A stretch of DNA of 64,000 nt, taken from the NCBI RefSeq assembly GCF_012489685.1, contig NC_080041.1:107911760-107975759 (forward strand), in the 5' to 3' direction. The notes beneath the pieces were generated by a model. That model was given only the letters and a program-made list of their open reading frames with translations, was not told the DNA's origin and searched no databases. This document shows positions 6,242-39,036 of the stretch, in pieces. Position 1 is the first letter of the stretch. Each line of letters opens with the position of its first letter. Source of the DNA: Lotus japonicus (lineage: Eukaryota; Streptophyta; Magnoliopsida; Fabales; Fabaceae). Made by a program: the position numbers and the translations under genes.

Positions 6242-6244
6242 TGA

Positions 6245-7149: not shown

Positions 7150-7262
7150 CTAGAAGAAGAGAAGTAACCCATCAAGGTCCTTCAAAACCTCCCAGCATTC
7201 AAGTTGAGATCACTGAATACTGGAAGCCTTTGAGGGAACATGAAGAGTTCTTTTTTCAATCA
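7150..7262 (-). ncRNA. MIR477-like precursor hairpin (copy C)
   Basis: Read on the minus strand, the 5' arm contains the 15-base core CCCTCAAAGGCTTCC within a 21-base candidate mature site (7218-7238). That core is the centre of the plant miR477 family as I remember it; the family is reported to target GRAS transcription factors. About 18 bases of loop later, the 3' arm (7176-7198) pairs with it over 23 positions with only three non-pairs, counting G:U as paired. This short, well-paired stem with the mature site on the 5' arm is the expected plant pre-miRNA layout. A TATA box lies 75-95 bp upstream. Three similar loci occur in the window. Expression is not shown by sequence. Confidence 0.7.
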
Positions 7263-7314
7263 ATCTCTCACTGTTATTATGTGTATGTGATTAATTAGTG
7301 AAGAAACATAATTG

Positions 7315-7330
7315 GGTTTATATTTATAGA
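7315..7330 (-). promoter_or_regulatory. TATA box upstream of MIR477-like copy C
   Basis: Minus-strand TCTATAAATATAAA about 80 bp before the candidate mature miRNA. A TATA box at roughly this distance recurs at all four hairpins, which argues for Pol II transcription of each. Confidence 0.55.
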
Positions 7331-8230
7331 CGTGCATGGTTGGCCCTTGCTCTTCAAGAGAGGTGAAAAGAATCTAATATCATATCTTATTTGATTCATT
7401 ATTCGGTTCTCTATGGTTTTGCTTTAATTTACTTCCCATCTTTTATTGTCATATGTCTTATCGTTATGTCTCTTAATAGAAAGAAATAAAATAGAAATGA
7501 GTAATGAAATGAAGATATATTTCTTCTCTCTTTTATCGCGGTGTATAGTATGAACCTGATCCACCATAGTTTCTAATAGTCTATAAGTGAACTATAATGT
7601 AAAAATGTGAGATTTTTTTCCAAGAATATGAAAATACAAAAGTAACCCTAAGAAATATAATTCTCACATTCTCACCGATTGGGTCCAATCAGTCATAAAC
7701 CACCTTTCGACCAACGTCCATTTTACACATAGAATTAACCATTGTCGGACTTTGCCCCTCACTCTAGTATCGACATTGTCCTATCCTTCAACCCCCACCT
7801 TCATCTCGTCTTCTTCTTCTTCCTTCCCCTCCTCAATGAGGGTTCGGGAGAAATGCACAAGATCAAAGTGACAATTGAGGCCAAGAAAGCACATAATGAT
7901 CAAATCCTCTGTAGTGCATCCCGTTTCGGTGTTTGAAAAGAATGCAAATGATTGCAACATGAATTTAAAGAATGGGTTGAAATTGGGAGAATGAGATAAA
8001 GGAAATGAATAGAAGAGAAGAGAAAATGTGGACAAGTATTCACATTGTCGATGCGGAGAGGAACTCTATGAAGTGGTGGTGGAAGCTAGAAAGGTCACTC
8101 TCTGCACTCTACTTAGCATCTCGGTTTGGGGCTAGTTTACGGGTTAGGTTGGTCACACAGTGGAGGTCACGTGGCCGAATGCCGGGGGGGGGGTGTTCCA
8201 CCAAGATCCAACTCACCTAGTCCTCCTGAG
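7331..8230. other. Intergenic, nothing supported
   Basis: AT-rich to 7.7 kb, then mixed composition to 8.2 kb with short frames on both strands (7742-7936, 7781-8035, 8005-8220). None shows a recognisable domain or gene structure. A run of nine to ten G residues lies at about 8184-8193. Confidence 0.5.
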
Positions 8231-8358
8231 CCCCCACGTCCTAGTTCAGAAATTTTAACCTGATTCCCTTTCGGAGTACGCGCTTAGAACGCTATCAGAC
8301 GAGCTTCCCCCGTCCCTTAGACTAACTCATGTGCAAGTGCCGTTCACATGGAACCTTT
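8231..8358 (-). pseudogene. Fragment of nuclear 25S ribosomal RNA gene
   Basis: The minus strand reads GGTTCCATGTGAACGGCACT, TGCACATGAGTTAGTC, GGGACGGGGGAAGC, CGTCTGATAGCG and CGAAAGGGAATCAGGTTAAA in that order, ending near GGACGTGGGGGCTC. This is the order and spacing of a conserved internal segment of plant 25S rRNA. Several substitutions and small deletions (for example after GTTAGTC) and the abrupt loss of similarity at both ends show a degraded inserted fragment, not a working rDNA unit. Its GC content contrasts sharply with its flanks. Confidence 0.8.
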
Positions 8359-8361
8359 CCC

Positions 8362-8920
8362 TCACTAAAAGAAGATAATGACACATTTATGAAATTCAAT
8401 CAACTCAGAATTGTAATGATCTTGGTCGAATATAATATGAATGACTTATTAGACATGAGAATTATAATGATGGGTAGCTCACTTGGTGAGCTAAGGGAAT
8501 GATGGGATTTGTAGGTGAAGGGTCAGAGTTCGAATAATGACGAAGGAACTAATTTACCAACAATTAATAACTAACATTGACCTATTTTAAAAAAAACCGT
8601 GGCCAAATGTGTGGTGGAGTGGAGGTATCATGTGGCTGTTCCAATAGGTGGTGGTGGATATGGGGTTTCACCTTCTTCCCCTTTCAATGTTGGTCCCGCT
8701 CCGGATACCATGTTAGTTGTTACAATTTAAAAGACTTATATTTACCTTAAAAATTAGCTCAAGACGTTATAATTATCTTCCCATATATGAATGTTATCTT
8801 GATTGTTAGATTGCACAAGATTCACTAAAAGAAGATAATGACACGCTTATGAAATTCAATCAACTCAGAATTGTAATGATCTTGGTCGAATATAATATGG
8901 ATGACTTATTAGACATGAGA
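8362..8920 (+). repeat. 99-bp direct repeat, copies at 8362-8460 and 8822-8920
   Basis: The two 99-bp copies differ at about three positions. The first starts within a few bases of the end of the 25S fragment. Sequence between the copies includes a SINE-like unit and a stretch ending in a short A run. The near identity suggests a recent duplication, or two edges of an inserted element. Confidence 0.75.
8470..8595 (+). mobile_element. Possible tRNA-derived SINE
   Basis: GGTAGCTCACTTGGTGAGC resembles a Pol III A box context and GTCAGAGTTCGAATAATG, about 50 bp later, resembles a B box; an A run follows at about 8588. The layout fits a plant tRNA-derived SINE, but I see no clear target-site duplication. 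Confidence 0.35.
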
Positions 8921-9630
8921 AGGATCACAACCTCAAATTGATCGATGTTTGAAATGATGGATGCTATTTAATTAATTTATCTGATACTAGCACAGAATGT
9001 CAACGCACAAACAGCATTAGCCAAATTTTCTTAATCTATATATGGCAATTGAATTTGTTTTTGAAAGTGGCATTGAAATTAATCCAAGATAAAGTAGAGA
9101 GGTTCTGTTACATGGAATGCCCACATGTATATAATTTACCGAATCGTAGCTGTTTATGAAAGCATTTTAAAGCCAAGATAGGCTCACAGTCACTGTGCAT
9201 GAATGGAAAATATTAATTAACAATGAATCGTGTCTTCTCTATATTTATATTGGATATTGGAATATCATATCCTAATTTTCTATTTTTCTCTTTATTTCTG
9301 TTTCAAATTAAACCCATGTATTTTTCAATGAGATAATCTTGTTCGAGTTAATAAAACTCCTATAGACAGCTAGCAAAGTTTTCATTATCAAATATTTAAC
9401 ACAACTCAATCAAATTCAAGACATTTACTTAACTTGGAACAAACTTGCATGTTTAATTTACATCATTTTCCTCCAGACAAGTTATATTGGGAATAAGTTC
9501 TACCTAGTATATCAATAAAGTTACCTTATCTAAAATTTGGCGAATCAATCTCCATGCAGTGGACAAAAAAATGCATGTGAATAGGTGGCTGATTTAAATT
9601 AATTGTGGGATGAGAGAATCAATCTTTCAT
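8921..9630. other. Intergenic, nothing supported
   Basis: AT-rich sequence without coding frames or repeats that I recognise. It contains the distal promoter region, if any, of the hairpin at 9.7 kb. Confidence 0.5.
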
Positions 9631-9633
9631 CTG

Positions 9634-9645
9634 TGTATAAATAGG
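9634..9645 (+). promoter_or_regulatory. TATA box upstream of MIR477-like copy D
   Basis: TGTATAAATAGG, about 80 bp before the candidate mature miRNA at 9719. A classic plant TATA element at the same relative place as in the other three copies. Confidence 0.6.
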
Positions 9646-9703
9646 TGTTCCAATGTTTATAATCTTAAATATATGTGGCTTAAGGGAATTTCAATTCTTT
9701 GAA

Positions 9704-9824
9704 GGGGAAAACCTTCAGTAACCCTCAGAGGCTTCCATAGCACCAAGTTGCGTCAAGTTATAAGTAAAATGACTAGAGACGTGGAGTTGTGGAAACCTTT
9801 TGGGGGGCCACTGAAGTTTTTAAT
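9704..9824 (+). ncRNA. MIR477-like precursor hairpin (copy D)
   Basis: The 5' arm carries ACCCTCAGAGGCTTCCATA (candidate mature site 9719-9739), one base different from the core of the other copies. The 3' arm (9782-9822) contains GGAAACCTTTTGGGGGGCCA and pairs with the 5' arm over about 38 positions, with a 2-base bulge and a handful of mismatches. AAAAC..TTCAGT also pairs with ACTGAAGTTTT at the base of the stem. The loop is about 35 bp. This copy is on the plus strand, head-to-head with copy C. Strong structural case; processing and expression unproven. Confidence 0.7.
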
Positions 9825-10390
9825 CCTGTTTTGAGATCTTCAGCTTAGTGAAATCAGTGAGTTAATTAATTAAACACCAGAATTTGAGCTTATTTGTTTT
9901 CATCCTCAAGTGGCACCATGAACCTACCATTTTGACCATTAGTTCAGGTTTGTTCACTACATAAAAGCATTGACAACTATTTCTAGAAAAGGTTCTTTAT
10001 TTTGGTTTTAGTGAGAGCAATTGATTAATTAATTATAACAAATCTCTGATTTACCTCCTAAATTAATAATGACTGTGATGCTGCATCAATCTTCTCATTA
10101 ATATAATTTGTATCATGACCTTTTGTGAGCGCAGCTGAATCTCTGATTTGTCTCCTAAAATTAATGGATGTGATGTTGCCTTAATTTGCTCATGGTATAT
10201 ATTTGTATTATTACCTATATTGTGTATCATTCATTACATTTGTTGTATATATTTGAATTTCAAATTACATGTAATCTGTCATTAATTCTTTATATTAATA
10301 TATACAGTAGATTAAGGCAGCATCATATCACAGTCACTAAATTTAGGAGACAAAACATGATTTTGTTCCAATTAATCAGCTACTCTTATA
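9825..10390. repeat. Foldback and direct repeats next to a copia end
   Basis: CTGATTTGTCTCCTAAAATT..GATGTGATGTTGCCTTAA (about 10144-10186) is matched in inverted orientation at about 10311-10360 and, less well, in direct orientation at about 10050-10092 (CTGATTTACCTCCTAAATTA). Either a small foldback element or the inner part of a copia LTR, since a copia polypurine tract sits at 10391. No coding sequence. Confidence 0.45.
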
Positions 10391-10765
10391 CTCCCCCGCA
10401 AGATATTGGTGATCCGTCAGAGATACCAATCTTGGTTCTTAAGTGCTCATATGTGTGCCTTAGATAATGATTTAGTTAAGCAATTGGCCTATTGATCAGC
10501 ATTTCGAACATGATGAACACTGAGTTTTTCTTGTTGTACTAAGTTTCGTACAAAGTGAATATCAATTGAAATGTGCTTCATGCGCTTGTGGTAGACTGGA
10601 TTTTGAGTAAGATAAGTAGCACTCAAATTATCACATAGAATTGTAGGAGACTATAAAAGTGTGATCCCCAACTCAGTAAGTAAAGAGTGAACCCAACCTA
10701 GTTCAACAACAGAGATTGTCAAAGCACGATATTCAGTCTTTGGGGATGATCTAGCTACTACATAT
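10391..10765 (-). pseudogene. Ty1/copia RNase H fragment with polypurine tract
   Basis: The minus strand encodes the end of a copia pol gene. TEYRALTISVVELGWVHSLL is the catalytic-glutamate region, CDNLSATYLTQNPVYHKRMK the following aspartate region, and HISIDIHFVRNLVQQEKLSV the downstream part. Several in-frame stops interrupt it (for example within TLL*SPT and NADQ*AN). The frame ends at ILRGSIR, overlapping GCGGGGGAG (minus strand of 10391-10400), the usual copia polypurine tract just before the 3' LTR. Only this domain remains; reverse transcriptase and integrase are absent. Independent of the SIRE-like element at the right end. Confidence 0.82.
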
Positions 10766-11222
10766 GGAAGTAAAGAAGGTTTACAAATGTAGAAATAAAG
10801 TCAATATTTATGGTGAACCACGTTAGAAATTGGCACTCTCACCAACTAGAGTGCATAAGAAACAACTAGGTATGTCTAGTATATGCTGAATTTAAAATAA
10901 ATTAATAAGAGCAAACAGATTATGGGAGCGACGATTGATGCTATCTAGATGTTGGATTACCCCCTTTAACATCACATTTGAAAGCTTTGCTCATGGAAAT
11001 TAGTGATATTTATACCTGCCCGTGGTGAGTTAGTTTTCGACATATCCCGTGTGAGGCTAATATGTGTCTTGACATACTTGCTTCCTGGGTTTGTATTTTT
11101 AATTTGGTCTCCGACATTGGTGCTTGCCCCCCGACTAAGTTCAATTCGCTTCTTGCATTGGACAGACATTGCTCTGTTGTTTGTTTTTAATTTCCTTAAT
11201 TAAAAAAATTGTACTCGTGCAG
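10766..11222. other. Intergenic, nothing supported
   Basis: Mixed AT-rich DNA. Short frames on both strands at about 10972-11203 show no recognisable domain. Confidence 0.45.
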
Positions 11223-11827
11223 TAAGGATTGGCAACGGGTCCCGTGGGTGCGGGTTTGACCATTCTCACACCCAAACCCGAACTTAACATTCAAACCCAT
11301 GTTCAAACCTAATATGAGTGCAAAAGTTAAACCCAAACCCTGGGTTTCGGGTTACCCAAACCCAAAATCCGATATTAGCTCCGAACCAGCAAAAAATTCA
11401 AAACCCAACCCGGAAACATAAGTTGATTAAACCTCATCATCTTTCTGATACAAAGAAAAAAATATAGTTCTTGAACATAAGTTGATAAACAACATAATTC
11501 ATGGATTTATAAGCATCCCAATTCTAAATGTCTAATACTTCATTCTTCAGTATTCTTCCAGCATATATAGTTGAGAATGAAGTTTTTTTTTACGTTAAAG
11601 AAAACTCTACTTAGTAACTTTAATAATATATATAAGGGCTAGTAATTACATACAAAAGCTTCGGGTTTGAGTTTGGGTGTAGGTGTAATCAATCTCATAC
11701 CCGAGCCCAAACGGGTTTTAAAATTCAGGTGAAACCCAAACCCAAAGAAATCAGGTTTTGCCCGAAATTTTGGGTTGGGTTGGGTTCAGATCAGACCTCG
11801 CGCGTGTGAATTTTCCTACCATCTCTA
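11223..11827. mobile_element. Non-autonomous hAT-like element (about 605 bp)
   Basis: The element begins TAAGGATTGGCAACGGG and ends CTACCATCTCTA (reverse complement TAGAGATGGTAG), an imperfect terminal inverted repeat of the 'TAGGGATGGCAA' type. It is flanked by CGTGCAG at 11216-11222 and 11828-11834, a 7-8 bp target duplication typical of hAT. Internally it is rich in AAACCC/GGGTTT in opposite orientations at the two ends. No transposase. Confidence 0.65.
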
Positions 11828-11999
11828 CGTGCAGAGGAATTATGTACTTTGAGAATCCATGGATGTGTTCTCTATTGTTTGGCTAGTTAGATACGCATCA
11901 CCCAATCAGCCAACCTAAGTATCCATGTATGAGATAGAACCCTTAGTGTACACAGAAAAATAATAAGTTATTAGTAGTCCTAGAAACTAAAATTATTTT

Positions 12000-12117
12000 T
12001 CCCGAAAGATAGATCAAGTAGTAAAAGCTATGGGACATATAGGTTGGGTAGGGAGGTCCAGTGATCAATTTCGGGCGGGTGCAATTTATCTTTCCGATGT
12101 AAAAAAAAAAAAAAGAG
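12000..12117 (+). mobile_element. SINE (Au-like) with 16-bp target duplication
   Basis: Contains AGATCAAGTAGTAAAAGCTATGG (A-box region, in the position of AGCTCAAGTGGTAAGAGCT), a degraded B box near GTGATCAATTTCGG, the tail GTGCAATTTATCTTTCCGA and a poly(A) run. GAAACTAAAATTATTT flanks it at 11984-11999 and 12118-12133, a clean 16-bp target-site duplication. The same family occurs in reverse at 43805-43914. Confidence 0.8.
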
Positions 12118-12619
12118 AAACTAAAATTATTTGTAAAATCTTATACCATATAATATTTTCGAAACTAAAAAGTGGTAACTCTAACAAGTGTCACCTTCTC
12201 ATTTTATGTCTTTCTTCACAAGTTTTCTCTCTCATACTATAATTAGTAGATAGATAATGTCATATTTTTATTTTTTAATTTGTTAAAAATTTAAAAATTA
12301 AATAATTCTACATTTTTTAAATAATTAATGTATTAATATCACATTAAATATATTTTTTGAACTATATTAAATGATTATTAATGACATTAGAATAATTAAC
12401 AAAAGTCAATTGTCACTTTTTTTAAAAATAACTACCGTATTAATTTGACATTTAATAGTTTTAATGACATTATAATAATTACTAAAAGTCAAGTCAATTG
12501 TGACTTTTCTAGCTACTATTAAGATGTATGCTGAGAAAACCTCACACCCAAAAATTTCGCAGCAACTCTTCTTTCTTCTTCGTAGATCTCTCTATCGAAT
12601 TCGCAGCAATTCCGAACCC
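12118..12619 (+). other. Upstream region of the H1 gene
   Basis: AT-rich to about 12500 with no gene, then CT-rich leader sequence (CTTCTTTCTTCTTCG at about 12568) and an ATG at 12620. The first ATG upstream (12524, ATGTATGCTGAG) is in another frame and short. No clear TATA box picked. Confidence 0.4.
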
Positions 12620-13511
12620 ATGGCGTCGACGGAAGAGCCCATCGCTTCGATCATCATGGAGGAGCCTGTCCCGAAGGAGCCGGCAACCGCTGACCTTCCA
12701 CCGGTGGCTGAGGATGAGCTTGCTCAGCCCGATCCCAACCCTACCAAGGAAGCCAAACCTAGGAAATGCGATGTTGCCAAGAAGGCCACACATCTTTCCT
12801 ACGAAGAGATGGTGAAGGATGCGATTGTGACGCTAAAGGAGAAGAGCGGTTCCAGCCAGTACGCAATTGCGAAGTTTCTAGAGAAGAAGCACAAGCAGCT
12901 TCCATCGAACTTCAAGAAGCTTTTGTTGTTCCATTTGAAGAAGCTTGTTGCTGCCGGGAAGCTTGTTAGGGTGAAAAACTCCTTCAAGCTTCCGTCGGTG
13001 AAGTCCTCCGTCGCTGCTTCCAGGCCGCCGGCGGCGAAGAAGAAGCTTGCAGTTGCCGAACCCAAGCCCAAGGCTAGGGCCAAGCCGGCGGCATCCAAGG
13101 CGAAACCTGCTCCCAAGCCGAAGGCAGCGACTAAGACCACTACCGCAACATCCAAGGCAAAGCCTGGCGGCCAAGTCTAAGGCGAAGCCAGCTGCTAAGG
13201 CGAAGCCGATGGCTAAGACCAAGGCGGTTGCTCCTGCTAAGGCGAAAGCTTCTCCGACTAAGACTAAGGCTGAGGCGAAGTATAAGTCGGCGCCTCGTAT
13301 GAATGAGAAGCCTCCTGTTCCGAAGGTGAAGCCTGCCGCTAAGGCGAAGCCCGCGGCGAGACCTGCAAAGGCGGCGAGGACCTCGACAAGAAAAACCACC
13401 GAGAAGAAAGCGCCTCCTCCTCCAAAACCTGCACCGAAGAAGGCTGCTACGCCTGTGAAGAAGGCTCCGACGAAGAGTGCGAAGGCTAACACTGTGAAGT
13501 TGTCGGCGTAG
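12620..13511 (+). pseudogene. Linker histone H1, reading frame broken by one base
   Basis: Linker histone that binds nucleosome entry/exit DNA. The start ATG at 12620 (MASTEEPIASI) fits the acidic/proline-rich N-terminal tail. The winged-helix globular H15 domain covers about residues 58-125: LSYEEMVKDAIVTLKEKSGS, SQYAIAKFLEKKHKQLPSNF, KKLLLFHLKKLVAAGKLVRV, KNSFKLP. The C-terminal tail is rich in K, A and P with AKPAAK-type repeats. At about 13163-13167 the run CCTGGCGGCC carries one base more than the tail repeat needs: the frame ends at TAA 13178-13180, while the next frame continues the same lysine/alanine-rich tail to TAG 13509-13511. So it is a one-base insertion, a sequencing error, or a recent pseudogene. 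There is no intron, although plant H1 genes commonly have one in the globular domain, which suggests a possible retrocopy. GC-rich against its surroundings. Confidence 0.85.
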
Positions 13512-14420
13512 AGGACTGTCCCCAAAAGGGGTGGGAGGAAGTGAATGGTTGGAGCCTAGTGTTTGTAGGTTTAGTCTTGTAGTTCTCAGACCCTTTGGGT
13601 TGTAGTTGCATCACAGGTGTTGATGAAAATCAACATGTTTAAGATTCCTATGAAAACCTTTTTTTTCCTCTAAAACATGCTGAGAAAGTCTTTTTTTAAT
13701 GATTATAGTTATCTTTTATATAACAAAATAAAATAAAAAAATTGAATGTAATATTTTACGTTCAAAATGATATCAAATATGTCGTAAGAAAATTGATATC
13801 AAATATTTTTAAGGGATTAATTTGGAAACTAACTCAAAAATTGTGTATTTTATGTTTTCGTATATACATCTGGAAGATTGAAATTATTTTGTTATATGAA
13901 TTCAAAGTATAACAAATTAGAAAAAAAATGAGAATATCACTATAATTTGAAAAGAAAAAAAAACATAAATAGTAATATACGTATTTAAAAAAGAAAAACG
14001 AGAGAGGAAATATAAAAATGTCTGATGTATGTTGACAAAGTACTTTTGTTTCATCCGTGTATGGCGCGAGCTCAATACAAGTTAAGCACTAAAACTAAAT
14101 TTGCATGTTAAATTGAGAACTAAATTTTATTTCAGTTGATATATGTGTTTTTTTTTTTTTGAAATGCGGGTTGATATAAGTTTTTTTTTTAACTCGCCAG
14201 TTGATGTATGTTAATTATATATTAAATTTGAATTAGCAATTAAATTTTCTTACATGCTAATTGATTTTGATTGTAGCCTTTCGTAAAGCAAAATCTCTTC
14301 TCCGTCGACTCGTGAGATATTATTTCATAAATTAGTGGCTAAAATGGTAGTGACTAAGAATGAATACTTCTAAGTTCAAACAATTATATATAAATAAAAG
14401 CATACTTTACCCTTAGACTA
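13512..14420. other. Intergenic, nothing supported
   Basis: The first 150 bp is probably the H1 3' UTR (GTTTGTAGGTTTAGTCTTG...). The rest is very AT-rich with long A and T runs and no coding frame. Confidence 0.5.
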
Positions 14421-15276
14421 CTAGATATTATACTCGTGTGATGTACAGGCTTATTTACAATGTTTTTTAATGTAATATTAAAATTATTATACTTTAAATG
14501 AATATTAAAATATTTTTAATTATAAGTATTGTAGAATTAAAATTAATTATCTTGAGATAATTTAGAGTTTTTTTGTGTGTAAAACAACACATACTCAAAT
14601 TTAATAATTTAATTTAATAATTAGCATTGAATTAGTTTTAATAATTTAATAATTAATTTATTTGTTTATATGAAAAATAATTATGAAATTTTGAAATATT
14701 TTGTATTAAATATTAAGCTTTAATATCTTCAAAAAATCTCTCAAAAAAAATATCTTCAAACAAGATATAATAATAACATAATTTATGTGCTTTATATCAA
14801 CAAAAAAGTAATTTTAAATAAATTATAACTTTTTAATAGCTCTTTAAAAAAACTTAAATAGTGTAAAATTGTATCTATGAAATTTAAAATTATATAGTTC
14901 TTTTTAATCAGTTTCCTTTGTTATGCCTTCTCAAGTCATTTGCACTAATATATAGTGGATCAAAAAATATATTTAATTTTTTTAAATAATATACAAATAT
15001 CTTATTGCGAAAATTTTAATTTTAAAACTATTTTGTCTAAATTATTTACTAATATCATATTTTATTATTATTTACTTTTTATTCTTGATGTTAATTTGGT
15101 TATGTAGGCAAATTTGGTTTATTATCATGAAGGATAGTGAGTAGGGGGGCCTTCATTTCTACCATTGTATTTAATGCTATGATTCAAGTCTCCTTCATAT
15201 ATGACACACACAGAGACAAAATATACAATATTCGAATCCAGGACATTTTTTAAAGAGAATAATGCACCACAAATAT

Positions 15277-15444
15277 TATTTTTTCGAAAGTAAAAATATA
15301 TTGATATAAAATGGAGGAGATAGAGCAAGATATACACCCCCCTCAAAGGGACCAAAAAGTGTACTACTCAAAAGCCCACGCCTAGAGATAGAAAAAAACC
15401 CGCCTGGAAGACCCAAAAAACCGCCCCCAAAGCCAACAACAAAC
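15277..15444 (-). mobile_element. LINE 3' tail nested in Helitron copy 1
   Basis: The minus strand reads a GC-richer 3'-UTR-like segment ending CTCCATTTTATATCAATATA and an A-rich tail (GAAAAAATAAT). CCACAAATAT occurs on both sides (15267-15276 and 15445-15454), a 10-bp target duplication. A strongly 5'-truncated LINE insertion with no coding part left. Confidence 0.6.
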
Positions 15445-15964
15445 CCACAAATATATTTAAATCAATGTTTTATTAAGATATTTATTTACATAAATCATTT
15501 TAATAATTTTTTTGTTCACATGTAAATTATGTGTACTTTTATCGGTGTAACTTTTTTATCGATAAACATCAGTGTAATTTTTGTTGTTAGAGTGGCTTGT
15601 TTCACTCTTTTTTAGAGAACAAAGTGTTATGTCTTGGAGCCTTTTGTCATGTTATGTTCTATTTTATACAACAAACATAAAAATTAGTTGGTAATTAAAT
15701 AATTTATTGATTTGTAATTTTTATTGATAAGTTTTTAGTTTAATGTATATAATACAAAGGAAATTGTTTATTTTATTGATGTATTTATAATTAAATTTCA
15801 ATTGAGTTTTACATTTTAGTATGTAGTTGAATAGCTAATGACTTGGACAATTTTATTCAATTCTAATATTTTAATTTAATTTATTTAATACAAAATGACT
15901 TTTACATTTTAGTAGGTAATGGAATAGATTATGACTTAGGAAACTTTAATTAGTTTTTTTATTT

Positions 15965-16630
15965 CTGGTGGGGTGAGGAGGCTTCCCAGTGAGGCTTTGT
16001 TCCCTGAATTGGGGGCGGGCCTCCCTGGTTTTGTTGCAATTGCTTGCTTGGAGGCTCCTTCTTCCTTTCCTGTTTGCGACGTGTTGGAGGAGGGCTCGAT
16101 GGTTTCTGAGGTGGCGGTGGGGACTGAACGACGACGAAGAGGACGACCCAGGAAGGTTACAGTACATTGAGGCAGTCGCACACAGGATTTCTAATCGAGG
16201 AGGTCGCCGAGGTTTCGAGGACTCAGACCACGTTGGCCCATAGCACTTCTCTGATTCTACCTGAAGCTCAAGGCTACAAGGGTGCATTGACGAGAGCTCG
16301 CAGGGTCTTCGCTATTGTCAAACAACTTGGTGTTGTCCCTGTGGGCTCTAACGAGGAAGTTATTCTTAGTCTTGTCGACCATCTAGTTGCTAACCATCCG
16401 AGACTCTACGGGGGTTCTTAGCGAGGCTTTGTTGTAGGGTCTTGCCTCTTGAGGTGTTTTTTCTTTTGGGGTTTTGGCTGGTTTTTTCCCCTTGGGTCTT
16501 TTAGTGTTGCGGGTTGTTTTCGTGTTTTTTCGGGGTTCCTTCAGATTTTCCTTTGTTGGGTCTTGTTGGTTTTTTGTCGCCTTTTAGCATATAGCGCGAT
16601 TTGAGAGTGCTCTCTCTTCCATTTTGCTAT
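15965..16630 (+). pseudogene. GC-rich coding-like insert in Helitron copy 1, frame-broken
   Basis: About 665 bp absent from the equivalent place in Helitron copy 2. On the plus strand one frame reads FPVCDVLEEGSMVSEVAVG and RRRRGRPRKVTV (an AT-hook-like RGRPRK), stopping at 16170. A second, overlapping frame continues ALTRARRVFAIVKQLGVVPV and ILSLVDHLVANHPRLYGGS to the stop ending at 16421. Both look like genuine coding sequence split by small indels. The following GT-rich stretch ends CTCTTCCATTTTGCTATATT, resembling the LINE tail at 15.3 kb, so this may be a piece of a LINE; a captured host gene fragment is the alternative. I cannot name the family. Confidence 0.4.
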
Positions 16631-16714
16631 ATTAATATACAAAGCAAGTTTTTATCATTTAATGCATTTAATATAAAGGAGCGCAATGAAACTCAAGTCT
16701 CCTTTACATATATA

Positions 16715-17976
16715 CTAGATATAATACCCGTGCGTTGCACGGGTTTACTTACAATGTTCTTATACAATAGATATAACATGTTGTACTGGTTTATTTACAA
16801 CATTCTTAACATTGTATAAAATGATTATCCCTCGATTAATACATTAATATTAAAATATCTTTATTATAAATTAAAAAATAATAATGGTGTTTAGAACCAA
16901 GAAAATTACAATTCAGATTATCAAAAAATAGTTAAAATATTTGTTATTGATTCATGTATTTTAATACAGGATCCTTTTACTTCTTAATGTATTTCATTAA
17001 TTTTTTTACGTTAATTAAATAAAAAATGGTGACTAATATATTTTTCATTTTTTTAAAGTAAAAATATTTTTAAATCATTATATTAACTCATATAAACTTC
17101 CTACCACAAACAAATAATTTTTAACTCTTTTTTTGCTTACATGCATCCTCCTAATTGAGAGGAATCCTCTTTTATAGGCAATCCTGCTCGAGTCAAGAAT
17201 TTTCACATATTGGTGGAGTTAACTCTTTCAGCGAAGTTTAAACATCAGTGTAATTTTTTTTTTATTAGAGTGTTTGTTTCATTCTTTTTTGTTTCACACT
17301 TTTTTAAAGAACTAAAGTGTTATGTTATGTTCTACCTTATACAACAAACACGGAAATTAGTTGGCACGCATATTTTTTAAAATCAATTTTTTATTAAGAT
17401 ATTTATTTATATAAATTATTTTTAATATTTTATCATAATATAACAAAAATTGTTCACATGTAAATTATGGGTACTTTTATCAATGTAATTTTTTGGTCGA
17501 TAAACATCAGTGTAATTTTTTTTATTAGAGTGTCTGTTTCATTCTTTTTTGTTTCACACTTTTTTAAAGAACTAAAGTGTTATGCTCTGTTCTACCTTAT
17601 ACAACAAACACGAAAATTAGTTGGAAGTTGATTAACTTATTGTGTTGTAAATTTTGTTGATCTGTTTTTATTTTAATGTATATAATACAAAATATTTTTT
17701 TTTATTTCTTGATGTATTTGTAACAAACTTTCAAGTGAGTTTTACATTTAGTAGGTAGTTGAATAGCTAATGACTTGAACAATTTTATTCATTTTTAATA
17801 TTTTAGTTTTTACAATTTAGTGGGTAGTTGAATAGATTATGATTTAAGAAATTTTATTTAATTTTTAATTTTATTATTAAAGGTATTAATACAAAAGAAA
17901 AGTTTTACTCTTTAATGCATTTAATGTAAAGGAGTGCAAAAAACTCAAGTCTCATTTACATATATATATATATAGA
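16715..17976 (-). mobile_element. Non-autonomous Helitron, copy 2 (minus strand)
   Basis: The minus-strand 3' end is classic: a perfect stem-loop CCCGTGCAACGCACGGG, then TATTATAT, then CTAG (16715-16718) followed by T. The 5' end reads TCTATATATATATATATG (TC at 17975-17976) followed by TAAATGAGACTTGAG. No transposition gene. It lies immediately adjacent and in the same orientation as copy 1, a head-to-tail tandem. Confidence 0.75.
17243..17628 (+). repeat. Internal tandem duplication in Helitron copy 2
   Basis: The block ACATCAGTGTAATTTTTTTT..TTAGAGTGT.TGTTTCATTC through ACAACAAACACG.AAATTAGTTGG occurs at about 17243-17367 and again at about 17507-17628, roughly 264 bp apart. A single, more diverged copy is in Helitron copy 1 at about 15566-15692. 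Confidence 0.7.
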
Positions 17977-18095
17977 AGTGGGTAGTTGAATAGATTATGA
18001 TTTAAGAAATTTTATTTGATTTTTAATTTTATTATTAAAGGTATTAATACAAAAGAAATGTTTTACTCTTTAATGCATTTACTCTTTCATTGTTA
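17977..18095 (+). repeat. Partial third copy of the Helitron 5' terminal segment
   Basis: GTGGGTAGTTGAATAGATTA and the following about 110 bp repeat 17820-17932 almost exactly (one or two substitutions), directly beyond the 5' end of copy 2. This is an extra truncated 5' terminus in tandem. Confidence 0.65.
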
Positions 18096-19264: not shown

Positions 19265-19879
19265 ATGGGAGGAAGCACAGAGAAGCTGATGAACCAGATC
19301 ATGGAACTCAAATTCACCTCCAAATCACTTCAACGCCAAGCTCGAAAATGCGAGAAGGAGGAGAAATCCGAGAAGCTCAAGGTCAAGAAAGCCATCGAGA
19401 AAGGCAACATGGACGGCGCACGCATCTACGCCGAGAACGCCATCCGCAAACGCACCGAGCAGATGAACTACCTCCGCCTCTCTTCCCGCCTCGACGCCGT
19501 CGTCGCCCGCCTCGACACCCAGGCCAAGATGACCACCATCAGCAAGTCCATGGGGAACATTGTCAAGTCTCTTGAGTCCTCCCTCGCTACTGGCAACCTC
19601 CAGAAGATGTCGGAGACCATGGATAGCTTTGAGAAGCAGTTTGTTAACATGGAGGTTCAGGCTGAGTTCATGGAGTCTGCTATGGCTGGTTCCACCTCTC
19701 TTTCAACGCCTGAGGGGGAGGTTAACAGTCTTATGCAGCAGGTCGCGGATGATTACGGCCTCGAGGTATCGGTCGGTCTCCCTCAGCCCGCTGCACACGC
19801 GGTTCCGGCTAAGGAAGCTGACAAGGTTGATGAGGATGATCTTACCAGACGGCTCGCGGAGCTCAAGGCTAGAGGTTAA
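19265..19879 (+). CDS. CHMP1: ESCRT-III subunit CHMP1 (VPS46/DID2 family)
   Basis: Intact 204-residue charged multivesicular body protein 1. It acts on endosomal membranes with other ESCRT-III subunits and recruits VPS4 and LIP5 to sort cargo into multivesicular bodies; in Arabidopsis CHMP1 is needed for sorting of auxin carriers (known for the family). The N-terminal basic helix is [20 protein letters not shown], followed by a long helical Snf7 region (about residues 10-150) including [20 protein letters not shown] and the family-typical [12 protein letters not shown]. The C-terminus [14 protein letters not shown] is a good MIT-interacting motif 1 (D/E-x-x-L-x-x-R-L-x-x-L-K). Full length for the family, no intron, start ATG in AAACACAATGG context. 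Codons are GC-rich at the third position in the first half, unlike the flanks. Probably a functional single-exon gene. Confidence 0.96.
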
Positions 19880-29068: not shown

Positions 29069-29140
29069 CTGCACCATTATAGGATTTGGCCCTGATGGAG
29101 AAATATAAACTGCTGGTCCAACATTCACAACTGATTCTGC
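29069..29140 (-). other. Exon-like block upstream of the E1-beta exon
   Basis: A 72-bp, 24-codon minus-strand block AESVVNVGPAVYISPSGPNP IMVQ lies between CAATTTCAG and CAG|GTTCGT. It is phase 0 at both ends, as is the E1-beta exon, so splicing would join the two in frame. Source gene not recognised. Further upstream on the same strand RVNAYRTCYATFGCRTILTL (about 29230-29290) may be another block. Confidence 0.45.
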
Positions 29141-29539
29141 CTGAAATTGGAATATGATCATGAACAATATTTTGACACAATGAAGTAAGCGAGATCACTT
29201 AAGAAAATAATCAAAACATACATAAGATTGTCCCATACGCAGTGTCAATATTGTTCGACACCCAAATGTTGCATAGCAAGTCCTATATGCATTGACTCTG
29301 ACTGTATTTGACCCCTCATACCCCGATCGGTAGAAGTCCCCTCTCGCTCTAGGCGTCCAGCAATATGCTAGAGTCGCAAAATTACAAGTAAAACGTAATC
29401 AGATAAGATAAAGAATGAATATAGTAAGGCTATTTCATACTAACAAATCCTACAATAAAAAATATACTCCATCATGATAACAAACCTGAGCCTTGTAACA
29501 CCAAAAAAAAACGGTAAGAAACCCTAAGAAAATATGTAT

Positions 29540-29690
29540 GTGAATTGAAAGCAAGAAATATAGATCAGGAAGAACGGCTGTGCCTCACCTCTACACTACA
29601 AGATGGATCTGATTCCGATCACCAATTGAAAGCAAGAAATATAGACCTGGATGGATCCGATTCCAATCGCTACTCACAAAGACCCAACCT
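29540..29690 (+). repeat. Short tandem duplication, 80-bp period
   Basis: AATTGAAAGCAAGAAATATA occurs at 29543 and 29623, each followed by GATCAGGA/GACCTGGA, and GATC.GATTCC.ATC recurs. About two units. An open frame through it is only a by-product of the repeat. Confidence 0.6.
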
Positions 29691-32340: not shown

Positions 32341-33097
32341 TAGGGGTGTTCGCGATTCGGTTTTAAAGGAAAAAATCATCCGATCCGATCATTTCGGTTT
32401 TATAATTTAATTATCCAAACGTGTTTTTTTTTTCAAATCCAGTCCAATTTTTATCAGTTTGGATTGGATTGGATTTCAGTTTTTCGAAGAAACTAAAAAT
32501 CTTGAAATAAATAACGAAATAGAAAATAAAATCATAAAACAAGAAGCACTGTAAAAGTTACAGGGACAAGATAGCATGCTTAACACTAACATCAATATTG
32601 TAAAAAATGAATTATGTACGCACTAATATGATGATTGTTAAGTGATGACTGTAATTTGTAACACTATTGCATTTCATGGACAATATCTAATTAAATCAAT
32701 CTAAGTTGATTATCAACCAATGTTACAAACGTATTGTTTTGAGTATGAGGCTAAGAAGCAGAGCAATGAGGGTTTCACTTTCGTTGAATGAAAAGAAGAC
32801 ATATGTCTCCTAACTTGGAAAGGGTTAAGCACATTACTGTAAAAGTTTGGGTATACATGGAATAAAACATTATAAGTATGTTTAAATGGGTAATTATGTA
32901 TAAATAAATAAAATATTTTCAGTTTGGTTTGGATCAGTTCGATTATGAACATGGGAACTGAAAACCAAACCGATCCATTAACAAAATATCAGTTTTTGCG
33001 GTTTTCGCTTTTTTTGGTTATCGATTTTTTCGGTTTTTGGTTTTTTGGATAGGTTTGAGCGGTTTCAATTGGTTTGGTTCGGTTATGAACACCCCTA
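32341..33097. mobile_element. Non-autonomous hAT element, 757 bp, 8-bp target duplication
   Basis: Starts TAGGGGTGTTC and ends GAACACCCCTA, perfect 11-bp terminal inverted repeats. TTTCATGA at 32332/32333-32340 and 33098-33105 is an exact 8-bp target duplication, diagnostic of hAT. Subterminal CGGTTT/AACCG repeats are abundant. No transposase. Confidence 0.88.
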
Positions 33098-33708
33098 TTT
33101 CATGATCCTATTATTTACTCATTCATCCATTTTCGATTGATCTATTTTCACCCTTTTTTTAAATCATGAATGGGAAAGATGGAAATCCTTCAATTTATCT
33201 GCTTGGATTGATAAAATGGATTTTTCCTCCATCGCCCCTGGTAGGCTGTGGTTACCAAAGATATGATCGAAGAGCCTAAGATAAAAAAGGGGAACGAGTT
33301 CAAACTTAAAAGTAATAGTCACGTGAAATCAGAAATAAGAGAAGCATTTGGATCTAAATAATTTTGGTAAATTATCTATTATTTTGATTTATTTAATCTG
33401 GTGATTTTTTCCTATGATTTGATTTGAGTTTTATTAGAAGTGGGGTTTCATTTTGTTGTTACATATTGATTTCTCTTCGAAATTAACATTTTGAATCAAA
33501 ATATATTATTATTATTATTATTGTTATTGCTATTATAAATAGAAACATTAATATGAAAAATAATCAATCAAATATGAATAATTAAACATGTATTAAAAAA
33601 TTAAAAATACTGATTTAATGTATATACAAAAATTAGAGTGGATTAAGTCTTATAATTTAAAATATTTAATTTTTTTTCATATTTAAATAAGTAAAAGTTT
33701 ATAAGTAA

Positions 33709-34324
33709 GGGTGTATTGGTGGGTTAAAGGGAACGCAGCAGATTTTTCATACTTTATGGAGCAATTTATAGTTGGTTTTGAATTTATTAAATTGAAGACA
33801 CAAGTTGTGCAGCGTGATGTTGTGGTTTGGCATCCTCCACCTGTGAGAATTTTGAAATTCAATGTAGATGGGGCTTCAAAAGGGAATCCTGAGCAAAGTG
33901 GAATTGGAAGCGTATTGCGCATTCTAATGGAGATATATTGGGATATTTTTCAAAATCAACAGGTGTGTTTTGGGCATATGAGGCTGAAGTACATGCTATT
34001 CTCAATGTTTTATTATTCTCTCATCAACATAGTTGTCATAATGTGCTTATTGAAAGTGATTCAACATTGGCAATTGGTTGGACTCTGGATGGTAATAAAA
34101 GGCCTTGGAAACTGCTACAAATTTTTAACCAGATTGATTACCAGTGGCACTTGGTTTCTTGCGTAGGTATTCAGCATGTACTGCGAGAAGGAAACACTGC
34201 AAACCAGGGATGTGGTAGGGAAGATGTATTGTGGGTTTGATCCTTTGATGTAACTCACATGAGAGAAATGTTCTCACGATTTTTAACAATTTTTCAATAA
34301 AGTTTTTGTTTCAGAAAAAAAAAA
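33709..34324 (+). pseudogene. LINE 3' end with RNase H domain, poly(A) and 10-bp target duplication
   Basis: TTATAAGTAA flanks the insert at 33699-33708 and 34325-34334. Inside, HPPPVRILKFNVDGASKGNP (first catalytic D) is followed, after a one-base loss near 33920, by YEAEVHAI (E), VLIESDSTLAI (D) and VLREGNTANQG (C-terminal motif), the order of the plant RNase H (RVT_3) domain at the end of LINE ORF2. The 3' UTR has AATAAAG (34296) and a 10-base A tail. 5'-truncated, frame-broken copy. Confidence 0.85.
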
Positions 34325-34585
34325 TTATAAGTAAAAAATTATGGTAAATTAATACCCAATTATCACTATTAAGAACATATAATTCAAACAATTGTTAAAA
34401 TATATTTACCAAAAAGATACAAAACATAATATTACTAGAAATTTAAATTGTAAATATCAAAAGTAACCCGTGCAAGTAACCCGTGCAGGGAACGGGTAAT
34501 TCTGCTAGTAATAAATAAAGCAAAGAAAGTGCAAATGCAATTTGGAGAGTTCAATGCGAAGCTTCTAATTGTAAAAAACCAAAGG

Positions 34586-35353
34586 TTTAAATACTTTGGA
34601 GGTACCTGAAATTGTCTGCCGTACGAAAATAAATCCCTGAATTTTTTTTTTCGGATTCTGAATCCCTGGAATTTTTTTTTTAATCAGAATAAGTCCCTAC
34701 TCATGTTTCCAGCCTATGTGGCTCAATTTTTGCTGGTCATTTATTCCACGTGGCTTTTCTATTATTTTAAATACACTTGGATTAAAAAAATAAAATTAAA
34801 CATTTAAATTTAAAATTAAAATCTTTTTAGGGATTTAGGGTTAATTAGATTTAGGGATTTAGGGTTAAAATGTTATTAACCTAATTAACCCTAAATCTAA
34901 TTAACCTAAATCCCTAAAAAGATTTTAATTTTAAATTTAAATGTTTAAATTTAAAATTAAAATATTATTAACCTAATTAACAATAAATCTAATAAATTGA
35001 AAAAAATAATAAATCTAATTAACCCTAAATCCCTAAAAATATTTTAATTTTAAATTTAATGTTTATTACATTTATAATTAAAATCTTATTAACCTAATTA
35101 ACCCTAAATCCCTAAAAAGATTTTAATTTTAAATTTAAATGTTTAATTTTATTTTTTTAATCAATGTGTATTTAAAAAAATAGAAAAGCCACGTGGAATA
35201 AATGACTCAGCAAAATATGTGCCACATAGGCTGGAAACACGAGTAGGGACTTATTCTGATTAAAAAAAATCCAGGGATTCGGAATCGAAAAAAAAAATTC
35301 AAGGACTTGTTTTCGTACGACAGACAATTTCATGGACCTACATAGTATTTAAG
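34586..35353. mobile_element. Foldback MITE with long inverted arms (about 770 bp)
   Basis: Ends TTAAATACTTTGG..GGTACCTGAAATTGTCTG and CAGACAATTTCATGGACC..AGTATTTAA are inverted, and the similarity continues inward for over 200 bp (GTCCCTACTC.TGTTTCCAGCC.ATGTGGC, TTATTCCACGTGGCTTTTCT). The centre is made of TTTAGGGTTAATTAGATT-type repeats in both orientations. No convincing target duplication, so the superfamily is uncertain (Mutator-like foldback possible). Confidence 0.7.
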
Positions 35354-35444
35354 TCAAAACCAAAATGAAAGAATTTAACATGCTGCAAAACCAAAAGATA
35401 ATCATACACCATGGATATACGAGAGGTGCTCCTATCCAAACACA

Positions 35445-35565
35445 TAGAATAAAAGCCTTCAGTGAACCCCCTACGGGCGACCGCTACTACATGTTTCTTC
35501 GTATTGAATCGATTTGAAACACAATGTAGCGGAAGCCTTTGAGGGTCACAGAAGACATTTTCTAC
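35445..35565 (-). ncRNA. MIR477-like precursor hairpin (copy A)
   Basis: On the minus strand the 5' arm holds TGACCCTCAAAGGCTTCCGC (candidate mature site 35528-35548), with the exact miR477 core. The 3' arm (35451-35496) contains GTAGCGGTCGCCCGTAGGGG and GTTCACTGAAGG. GCGGAAG/CTACAT-side bases and CTTC.GTGA at the stem base pair well; the core region has about five mismatches in 20 positions, the weakest of the four stems. Loop about 20-25 bp. TATA box at 35683-35694. Starts 90 bp beyond a foldback MITE. Confidence 0.62.
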
Positions 35566-35682
35566 ATTCAATCACACCAACAGAACAAAGGGCTTCTTTG
35601 AAGGGACTTAGAAACTGCTTCTTCCTTTGTAAGCATTCAAGTTTATTAGCACACTTTGCTAATGAAAACTAAGGTTTAGTGG

Positions 35683-35694
35683 CCTTATATACTG
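35683..35694 (-). promoter_or_regulatory. TATA box upstream of MIR477-like copy A
   Basis: Minus-strand CAGTATATAAGG, about 140 bp before the candidate mature site. Confidence 0.5.
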
Positions 35695-35699
35695 ATGGT

Positions 35700-36960
35700 T
35701 TTGTCCCTTCGCCTCACCACGCAGCTAAAGAATAATATTTCCTATAGAGTAAAGAGATGTGTTCCCTGCTCTGTAAAAAATGTTCCTCATTTTCCAGATA
35801 CGATTCTCCATTAATCCTATAGCTACCAAAAAAATGTGCAACTATCAATGGCATATGAAAAAAGCATATGTAAATTTATTCCTAATTTTAGGATAAGGGG
35901 AATTCTGCCATACGTAACCAAAATAGATAATGTATAGTTGCTTTACTTATTAAATTCGATTTGAAACAATGTGTAATGCATCGTTTAATTAATTTATGAG
36001 TAAATTTAAGCTTGTAATCGTACAACAATTAAAAAAAAAACTGTATTTGTACACATCTATTTTGGCCTATTTGACAAAGTTATAGAAGGCTTAATACTTT
36101 TTCTATTTTACACTAACACTGTGTATGCTTAGATTTGTTTGATTCGTGAAATGAAGTTTCTAGCCTGTGCCTGTTGACATATAGTTGGCAAACGGGGAAT
36201 ATAAAAAAGATAGAATCTGAATATGGCTTGAATAGTAGTTGAATTCCATATACGTTTCAGAAAATTAACTAGCCACGTGGATTGATTGTCTGCAATTTAA
36301 ATTCTCTTTTAAAATTCGTTTGCAGAAGAAATAAAAAGTTTTGCAGCACATGCACTAATGTCAAATTTTCAAAACCTTGAATCATGAGAGAACATCTTCT
36401 CATGAAGGCGCGCATTACATCAGGGCCATTTAACAACGTAATAACAGTCCACAATACATTGGTGCTAAATTATAATCTTGTTTTGCAAGAGAAGTTATCT
36501 TCTCAATTGTGATATGGTTTTTGTTTTGCAGGGTAATTTTTAGATTTAAAAACATCGATGTTATGGATAATTTGTTAAGTTGGTGGAGGATTTATTGTAT
36601 CTAAACTAGTTTTGAGAGTTTCATTATTAAAATTGATCACAAGATTTTCATTGATTACCTACGATAAAAAACCTATCGATAATTTGCGAAAAATCATTGG
36701 TAAAATGGAATACTTGTGACAGTGCATCCGTCATACCAAATTAATAACTATTGAAGTGGAGATTTGGTTTTGCATTGTGTGATTTATTGGTGTATGGATT
36801 TTTAACATTAGTTAATTTGATTGTTCTTCTTCTTTCTCTTTAGCATACCATGACGATGACAATTGGTAATGGTAATTTGGTATAACATGCAAATGGTAAT
36901 TAATCTTCCTCTTCTTTAGCATACCATGGCAATTGACAATGGTAATATGTTTGTTTGGCC
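35700..36960. other. Intergenic, nothing supported
   Basis: AT-rich; no gene or clear element. A local direct repeat, TAGCATACCATG.C.ATGACAATTGG.AATGG, occurs at about 36842 and 36918. Confidence 0.45.
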
Positions 36961-36984
36961 CTCTTGTTTGATCAAGGATTGAAC

Positions 36985-37160
36985 CGTTTATTTAGCTCTC
37001 TGATGTGAGAGATTGCATTGTTTGATTCTCTAGTGTGAGAGATTGCATTTGTTTGGCCCTGATGAGGGATTACATCATTTAGCTTTTCGGTGTGACGGTG
37101 CCACTGTGGAGTCTGAGGAATTTGGATTGTTTGGCCCTCTGATGTGACGATGGAGTATGA
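36985..37160 (+). repeat. Short tandem array, about 35-bp units
   Basis: Degenerate units of the form TTTGGCTCTCTGATGTGAGAGATTGCAT repeat four to five times. Each unit contains a small palindrome (CTCT.A.GTGAGAG). A minus-strand open frame through it reflects the repeat only. Confidence 0.55.
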
Positions 37161-38468
37161 GAATTTTGCTTCATGCTTCATCCATGATGTGGCTTGCAAT
37201 ATTGGATGAAGATAATGGTTTTGATTTTAGAGATTGGGTGTTTCTGCTTCCAATACTAAAAAGTAAAAACGTTTATTTTTTTTCTTAATTAGCAAACTAT
37301 AGATGCTTCATGTTGATGCGTCACGAGTTTGAGGGGATGTTAGATAAAATAAGTTTGTTTTATTATTTAGGTCTTATGGATAGTTGGTCTTTTAGCATTT
37401 TACTTACTGCCTATTTATATTTGTTCATTTGTTTTCTATTGGAATATAAGCCGTCACAATGTAACCCTATTACACTTCCATTTTCTCCTCTCTCTTTTCT
37501 CTTTGCATTACTTTTTTTTTCTTTTAACAATTCTCTTGATTAAACTGATAAATGGTTGGGGCTGATGGAGTATTTTGATGTCTTTAACAATGATTTAGTT
37601 GTAGATAAGTGACCGATTAGTTTGGATCCTCTCGAGTCATTTTTTCTCTTATTATAGCAGCTATTCTAAGCTCATTTAGCTACTATAGTGTATGTTAGAA
37701 TCCCTTTTTGTTCAAATTTTATTCTGTTTACATATCAAACGCTACCATTTGAAGATTTATACATCACAATAAACACAAAAAATTGACTGCTGGGAAAAAG
37801 ATTGTTTAGTTTTGTGGAGAATATCAAATCTTTTAAATGATTGAACCACTCATGAATGATAGAGAAGCTTTGACTAGATGAAATTGATAGAGGCAGAGAC
37901 CGCACAACTAGCGAATAAATTAAATGTTATTCTTCAAGGAAGAAATAAGTCAAACAACATGCATGTAACTCACTATAATGCTTTCAGAGCAACTTGCTCA
38001 CCCATTTATCTCTAAAACAAATAACAATGGGTATCTATATAACATTTTCAAAGACTAGTTGTGCGGTTACACCCTATTAGAACTTATATATTTTGACCAA
38101 TAAGTATATATTTTGATTCCTCTATTAAATAAGATCGTTAATATAATTGTTTCCCGTAAAAAAAAGTGATACATTTTGGATAAGAATTAAGTCAGCTTTA
38201 ATATGAGATGATTAACTAATTGACTTAACTACCTTATTTTGCTCTTAATTCAACGGAAATCTCTAACACTACATATATTGATGTGACACACTGAAGAAGA
38301 GAAAGTTTTTTAGAGCTTTCTTAACTGAATATATTAGAAAAATACCAAACCATATTAAAGCCTTCAACAGAAATATATCACTGTTTATAAAATCTTCTAG
38401 CGTAAATAATATGTCAAAAGATTACAAATTAATGGTCCAAAAGGAAGTTATAAGGTTACATGTTACAT
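37161..38468. other. Intergenic, nothing supported
   Basis: AT-rich; a hydrophobic open frame at 37310-37543 has no recognisable domain. Confidence 0.45.
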
Positions 38469-38637
38469 GGTTTTAAATAAAGATCGGCGATTGCAACTGA
38501 AACTGCAACTTTAGTTTCAAGGATTTCGAAGGTCTTCCTAACTGTATCATGACTGCGATTGCAGGCCGCATTTGTCCTTCATTTTCCGCAATACCAAGGA
38601 TCACAACATGACCGACCATGACTGCAATTTAAGACCT
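38469..38637. mobile_element. Small MITE-like element
   Basis: GGTTTTAAATAAAG at the left and GCAATTTAAGACCTTA at the right form an imperfect inverted pair around GC-richer sequence with CGATTGCA/TGCAATC-type motifs, a common plant MITE pattern. Target duplication not resolved. Confidence 0.4.
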
Positions 38638-38910
38638 TAGTCACTTAAATAATCATGCTTAGGTTGAAGTTCTGTTGGTGTGCCTTTGATAAGCAAACAT
38701 GTAAACTAAAATCCCGAATGCTGCATGGAGACAATGTGTACGTACGTACTCTGAGTTTTGCTGCAACAATGAAATTAGTATAAATTAATTACAGAGTAGG
38801 CTGGAAGTCCAATAACTGCAATAACACAAGTTAGAAAATATTGATTCAAATTAAATAGCCACAATATTTGACTCAAAAACATTGTTGTTTGGATAATATA
38901 TATAAACATC

Positions 38911-39036
38911 AGAATGGCCTTTAATGGTCCCCAATAGCCCCCACGCCTCCATGTTTGTGGATATTCATCCATACATGAATTGAATCGCTTATAACATAGA
39001 GTAGTGGAAGCCTTTGAGGGTCACTAAAAGCATTCT
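38911..39036 (-). ncRNA. MIR477-like precursor hairpin (copy B)
   Basis: The minus-strand 5' arm AGTGACCCTCAAAGGCTTCC.. (candidate mature site 39003-39023) pairs with the 3' arm 38911-38953 (contains GTGGGGGCTATTGGGGACCA). In a 36-position alignment about 31 positions pair including G:U. The base of the stem, AGAATG/CATTCT, is also paired. Loop about 45 bp. This is the best-paired and cleanest of the four hairpins. Same strand as copy A, 3.5 kb away. TATA box at 39131-39146. Confidence 0.72.

Follow-up and report, generated by a model that had tools for sequence, protein, structure and literature searches.

A cluster of MIR477-like hairpins in Lotus japonicus and a predicted target site in a GRAS gene

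Hairpins, TATA boxes and duplication

The stretch of DNA analysed here (the window) comprises 64,000 nucleotides of the Lotus japonicus genome (contig NC_080041.1, positions 107,911,760 to 107,975,759) and holds four hairpins resembling microRNA (miRNA) precursors of the MIR477 family, designated C, D, A and B in the order of their positions (Table 1). All of them share a core, CCCTCARAGGCTTCC, which was found four times in the window when up to two mismatches were allowed, against a mean of 0.07 in shuffled sequences, with none of 100 shuffles reaching four copies; the four places proposed in an earlier note made from the sequence alone were thus recovered. The core is exact in C, A and B, and D carries a single A-to-G change. 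Moreover, a covariance-model search of the window found no copies besides these four and their antisense.

Each segment folded into a single long stem with the core on its 5′ arm, as the note had expected, with energies of −44.7 (C), −53.8 (D), −53.4 (A) and −59.3 kcal/mol (B) and z-scores of −3.4, −5.3, −5.8 and −7.2, respectively, and none of 200 shuffles of any segment folded as well. The predicted duplexes of C and B had 2/2 and 3/3 unpaired bases, respectively, and a star of 21 nt in both cases. The mean pairwise identity among the four copies was 80% in the 5′ arm, 55% in the partner arm and 47% in the loop, compared with 52.6% for random 21-mers. In the consensus structure, which was derived from the same four sequences that were scored (n = 4) and hence favours the pairing count, 82.9% of the cells were standard pairs, falling to 42-55% after sliding by one to three columns, and three pairs had changed on both sides, a value reached by 4 of 500 shuffles. 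As the 3′ arm has diverged in sequence and has nonetheless kept its pairing, the constraint appears to act on the guide and on the pairing rather than on the star sequence. The proposal that the mature site and its pairing partner are both kept therefore holds for the 5′ arm and for the pairing itself, and not for the sequence of the 3′ arm, which is close to random. Furthermore, homology between the window copies above the level of chance words was confined to the stem-loop, the longest match being that of A and B (69 bp at 78%); the long C/D matches in that comparison arose because the two extracts overlap and because a repeat lies between the copies. Two stretches of about 100 bp between C and D, around 8373-8472 and 8822-8921, form a direct repeat with 97% identity.

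A TATA element (pattern TATA[AT]A[AT], on the strand of the hairpin) was present upstream of all four copies, 86-146 bp before the motif, in agreement with the earlier observation. For a random stretch of 91 bp in this AT-rich window, the probability of holding such an element was 0.11, giving about 2e−4 for four out of four, where the 91-bp span was picked post hoc with the distances already known. On the other hand, phosphate- and mycorrhiza-related promoter motifs showed no consistent excess in the 1 kb upstream of each copy. P1BS was absent from all four regions (background of 0.58 per kb), the CTTC-like motif appeared as two overlapping occurrences in C and none in D, A and B (background of 0.21), and the MYCS-like motif was found three times in C, once in D, not in A and once in B (background of 1.3), so that C alone exceeded the background.

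Table 1. Features of the hairpin cluster (positions in the window)
Feature	Position	Strand	Basis or remark
Duplicated segment with C, D and histone H1 copy	6164..17181	.	second copy at C1:107885447-107899454
Hairpin C, MIR862/MIR477-type precursor	7150..7262	-	fold; Rfam RF03477, RF00780
Predicted 21-nt miRNA of C, UCCCUCAAAGGCUUCCAGUAU; star GCUGGGAGGUUUUGAAGGACC	7217..7237	-	duplex; 21/21 identity to soybean 5p
Core in C	7222-7236	-	motif search
TATA box of C, TATAAAT	7322..7328	-	92 bp before motif
TATA box of D, TATAAAT	9636..9642	+	86 bp before motif
Hairpin D, MIR5037b-like precursor	9704..9824	+	fold; Rfam MIR477
Candidate miRNA region of D, UAACCCUCAGAGGCUUCCAUA (ends inferred)	9719..9739	+	core and duplex; 16/20 to gma-miR5037b
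Core in D	9722-9736	+	motif search
Hairpin A, MIR5037/MIR5044-like precursor	35445..35565	-	fold; Rfam MIR477
Candidate miRNA of A, UGACCCUCAAAGGCUUCCGCU (ends inferred)	35528..35548	-	duplex; 19/21 to gma-miR5037C1
Core in A	35531-35545	-	motif search
TATA box of A, TATATAA	35685..35691	-	146 bp before motif
Hairpin B, MIR5037/MIR5044-like precursor	38911..39036	-	fold; Rfam MIR477
Candidate miRNA of B, UGACCCUCAAAGGCUUCCACU (ends inferred)	39003..39023	-	duplex; 20/21 to gma-miR5037C1, 22/24 to gma-miR5044C1
Core in B	39006-39020	-	motif search
TATA box of B, two overlapping TATATAT	39134..39142	-	120-122 bp before motif

In the whole genome of 553.7 Mb (553,688,102 bases), the exact core occurred at eight places and its reversed control at none, these and the later genome match counts being possibly lower bounds; six of the places belonged to the hairpin cluster, one to a GRAS gene and one lay elsewhere. 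The idea that every core match marks a hairpin was accordingly rejected, as the matches at C2:33987893 and C4:52984663 are not hairpins. The former lies in an open reading frame (ORF) of 129 amino acids that resembles, by eye, the window ORF at 56160-56552, and it gave neither a match of the covariance type to the copies nor an Rfam match at E up to 0.5.

The six cluster places include a second pair of C and D, designated C′ and D′, which was found at C1:107886502 (−) and 107889027 (+), 32.5 kb upstream and outside the window, with TATA boxes at the same positions. The D′ hairpin was identical to D over 160 bases, and a small indel near the edge was the only difference between C′ and C in the 135 bases compared. 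The two copies of the duplicated segment align in three blocks at 97.7-98.8% identity, the upstream one being longer by about 3 kb, and this comparison places C and D in a tandem duplication of recent date. The four-locus cluster of the earlier note thus describes the window correctly but not the limits of the cluster, which has six hairpins over 64 kb. No further credible members were detected in the 130 kb flanks, where the covariance-model search returned only C′, D′ and their antisense, together with one weak match at E 0.33.

Family assignment and gene order in soybean

At a threshold laxer than the curated cut-off, C matched the Rfam family MIR862_2 (RF03477) end to end with 70.2 bits (E 2e−12), 0.8 bits short of the cut-off of 71, and none of D, A and B appeared among the matches of this family with E up to 5. 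All four copies gave full-length matches to MIR477 (RF00780), with 43.0 (C), 35.6 (D), 26.8 (B) and 26.3 bits (A) for a cut-off of 65, and E-values of 5e−4, 0.16 and 0.23 for D, B and A, respectively. By Rfam's standard, the four copies are therefore MIR477-like only, although the mature core CCCUCAAAGGCUUCC lies on the 5′ arm, as the same core does in the MIR477 family.

The predicted 21-mer of C was identical to the 5p sequence of soybean gma-miR862C1 (21/21) and matched 16 of the 21 positions of its 3p. The same sequence, UCCCUCAAAGGCUUCCAGUAU, is given as gma-miR862C1 5p in soybean (PMC4214822), and as miR477 in peanut (PMC5335773) and Astragalus (PMC6572118); a miR477 with the same core has been published in moss (PMC1838911). 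The candidate miRNA of B matched gma-miR5037C1 at 20/21 positions and gma-miR5044C1 at 22/24, that of A at 19/21 and 19/24, respectively, and that of D matched gma-miR5037b at 16/20, the latter name being taken from PMC3867309. As for the standing of these soybean miRNAs, miR862a/miR862a-5p was among six wild-soybean pairs strictly meeting miRNA criteria (PMC3519564), a legume review calls miR862 in soybean 'striking' (PMC3707012), and miR5037 was termed a legume miRNA in a study of bean (PMC4462009). The identification as miR477 made in the earlier note is consequently supported, by full-model matches below the cut-off and by a 21-mer equal to a published miR477; the family is already known, under the names miR862 and miR5037 in soybean. 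A literature lookup of four Lotus miRNA names gave no paper.

The arrangement of the loci was compared using the coordinates printed in the soybean papers, which cover miRNA loci and their strands. On soybean Gm18, MIR862 (MIR-Seq04b; 61,624,611, −), MIR5037b (MIR-Seq05; 61,626,669, +) and MIR5037C1 (61,631,519, −) are found within about 7 kb (PMC3141666, PMC4214822). This order and these strands are conserved in the window, where C (−) is followed by D (+) 2.5 kb on, and then by A (−) and B (−). Similarly, Gm08 read in reverse presents MIR862a, MIR-Seq06 (which we take to be miR5037a) and MIR5044 all on the same strand, which is also the case for C, A and B here, and no D-like locus was seen there in the published coordinates. 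The coordinate of MIR862a was nearly equal in both papers (46,853,906 vs. 46,853,887; PMC3141666, PMC4214822), so that the soybean maps agree at that point. In contrast to soybean, A and B are about 26 kb from D in Lotus, with protein genes between them, C and D have been duplicated again, and the core of D has one G for A.

As the same gene types appear in the same order in soybean, the cluster is old and shared rather than a local oddity and, together with the identity of C and the likeness of D, A and B, the shared order indicates that this is the Lotus version of a cluster already known in legumes. The remark in the earlier note that such a cluster is unusual is not supported, given the same order in soybean (PMC3141666, PMC4214822) and the many members of MIR477 in grape, which belongs to another plant family than Lotus and has several members of this miRNA family beyond the two in miRBase (PMC6404619). 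A and B can be considered candidate counterparts of MIR5037/MIR5044, without a one-to-one assignment. Overall, three soybean miRNA names and two Rfam families appear to denote one old family, whose order has been kept between soybean and Lotus. No statement uniting miR5037, miR477, miR5044 and miR862 in one family was present in the accessible parts of PMC5048172, PMC4214822, PMC6888636 and PMC3519564, and it may be in print elsewhere.

The GRAS site and the proposed function

A site antisense to the core was located at C4:52984663, in an ORF of 509 amino acids with a full GRAS domain (374.8 bits). The predicted target site (C4:52984658-52984680) encodes ILEAFEG, directly before VHVVD, and its pairing with the 21 nt of C departs from perfect complementarity by a single G:U pair and a mismatch at position 1. 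The complement of the C miRNA had nine listed places with up to three mismatches (control, 0), three of which were the miRNA genes C′, C and B. Among the six remaining listed places, the GRAS site had the fewest mismatches (two, one of them a G:U), the other five having three each: an ORF presumably of a poly(A) polymerase, the end of what we take to be a bHLH-type protein, a 121-amino-acid ORF of unknown kind, a place reading LLEAFEG but lacking an open frame of 90 amino acids, and a fifth place likewise without such a frame. For the complement of the B miRNA, 29 places were listed (control, 4), namely B, A, the GRAS site and 26 places at three mismatches, the GRAS site being the only listed place besides A and B with up to two (2). 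Within the 26 places, the sequence AGTGGAAGCCATTGTGGATCA was listed 17 times on contigs C1 to C6, a dispersed repeat that could be a decoy or unrelated.

The complementary site that a miR477-GRAS module calls for was therefore found by sequence in a GRAS gene of the same genome, as had been expected, with expectation scores of 1.5 (C), 3.0 (B) and 3.5 (A). Moreover, no shuffled miRNA equalled the match to the GRAS coding sequence for C, B and A, and one did for D, out of 5000 each. The nearest solved structures to the GRAS protein by sequence were those of SCL3, SCARECROW and DELLA proteins, and an NCBIfam search with this protein gave no match.

The hairpins are miRNA-type genes, and both their family and their arrangement were already known; a local duplication and a single target that stands out come in addition, the GRAS site and the fuller, six-copy cluster being the details that go beyond the known family. 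From the sequence, the folds, the TATA boxes, the match to soybean miRNAs sequenced by others and the target site, we consider it highly probable that they are MIR477-family genes orthologous to the soybean MIR862/MIR5037/MIR5044 cluster, with their own TATA promoters and 5p guides cleaving the GRAS messenger RNA (mRNA) of contig C4. Transcription, dicing, loading and cleavage are the steps that we infer. RNA polymerase II would transcribe each hairpin separately from the hairpin's own promoter, and its stem would be diced into a 21-nt guide from the 5′ arm carrying CCCUCAAAGGCUUCC. Once loaded into AGO1, the guides from C, B and A would direct the cleavage of a single GRAS mRNA within the ILEAFEG codons, just before VHVVD. 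The family itself would go back to older duplication, and the doubling of C and D would be due to a more recent tandem event that placed the copies 32.5 kb apart.

Several results weigh against this interpretation. No family reached its curated Rfam cut-off for any copy, and further pair types in the consensus structure were not in excess (305 of 500 shuffles reached the value). Plant miRNA annotation commonly admits duplexes with up to five mismatched positions and small bulges. The predicted duplexes of D and A had 3/5 and 5/7 unpaired bases, respectively, with a star of 23 nt in both, and are borderline, at or beyond that usual limit; the score of D at the GRAS site was also weak (5.0). A rather less probable reading is that only some copies work, with C and its duplicate as the functional miR862/477 gene and with A, B or D decaying or using the alternative arm, yielding little 5p product. 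The poor duplex of A and the weak target score of D fit that alternative, as does soybean MIR5044, whose 3′ arm seems dominant by an uncertain reading of the table columns (PMC4214822). However, A and B have the strongest folds and an exact core, small RNAs have been sequenced from similar soybean loci (PMC3141666, PMC4214822), and TATA boxes are present at all copies.

The published targets of these miRNAs are another point against cleavage of a GRAS mRNA. In the accessible parts of the sources, no target of MIR5037 or MIR862_2 emerged from a degradome of Ammopiptanthus (PMC5048172), and the peanut degradome rows for miR477 list a MAP kinase, a heat-shock protein, a peroxidase and an inositol-phosphate synthase rather than GRAS (PMC5335773). 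Other genes were predicted as targets of soybean miR862b and miR5037c (PMC6888636) and of MIR-Seq05 and MIR-Seq06 (PMC3141666), and NLR genes as those of wild Arachis miR477 (PMC12652868); the predictions for bean name a tetratricopeptide protein (PMC4926421) and those for cassava pentatricopeptide genes (PMC4730657), and a CONSTANS-like mRNA was validated as a target of moss miR477 (PMC1838911). By arithmetic with equal bases, moreover, any given 15-nt word should occur about once in such a genome when both strands are counted. The hairpins could then be MIR477-family genes whose main targets are not GRAS, the perfect 15-nt match being a conserved codon string, an alternative that agrees with the other targets listed in legume studies (PMC5335773, PMC3141666, PMC6888636, PMC12652868, PMC4926421, PMC5048172). 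We regard it as unlikely, since the match extends over the 21 nt of C with only the G:U pair and the mismatch at position 1, two diverged miRNAs (C and B) share the GRAS site as the best among the listed places, and GRAS-domain targets are on record for grape miR477c (PMC6404619).

Finally, an inverted repeat at 6018-6123 and retroelement ORFs in the window might suggest that the copies have no miRNA role and represent inverted-repeat transposons (MITEs), or stems that arose by chance and share a motif. This is very improbable and was rejected, since homology among the copies is limited to the stem-loop, C equals a sequenced soybean miRNA at 21/21 positions, and the core, with six of its eight occurrences in 553.7 Mb in one cluster, does not behave as a transposon would.

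Under the interpretation of the hairpins as a miRNA cluster acting on the C4 gene, the shared GRAS target would make the function of 'legume-specific' miRNAs directly testable in a model legume. A possible likeness to RAD1, a GRAS protein of mycorrhizal symbiosis that regulates arbuscule development, is suggested by the motif VHVVDLGMSLGLPHGHQWR and by the beginning of the C4 protein. If the gene is RAD1, the cluster would act as a brake, made up of several genes, on mycorrhizal symbiosis, and its recent doubling in Lotus would amount to a change in dose; that miR862, miR5037 and miR5044 form one syntenic MIR477 cluster converging on this single GRAS gene is put forward only tentatively. The link of miR477 with RAD1 may already be in print, as both terms occur in PMC11900033, PMC12873713 and PMC6688120.

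Surroundings of the hairpins

The interval had been described as transposon-rich, and transposons are indeed present, but not alone, since it also contains a histone H1 copy and a CHMP1-type ORF. The linker-histone H1 gene (12500-13511, +) has a broken frame, in place of which the upstream duplicate has an open frame of 274 amino acids; the histone H1 query gave a top match at 96%, followed by Lupinus albus at 55%. The ORF of the CHMP1/Snf7 type, of the endosomal sorting complex required for transport (ESCRT), is intact (19265-19879, +), lies between the two hairpin pairs and was 98% identical to a Glycine protein among the best 120 of 190 matches listed.

As for the mobile elements, the long inverted repeat at 6018-6123 is MIR6274-like, with 44.9 bits for a cut-off of 80, and is probably a MITE. 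The ORFs at 60103-63207 (−) have integrase and reverse transcriptase domains, and we take this retroelement to be of the Copia type. A PIF1-type helicase ORF (1142-2131, +) presumably belongs to a Helitron. Furthermore, a transposon-like ORF of the window matched three Lotus japonicus proteins, at 67, 62 and 36% identity (E up to 1e−20).

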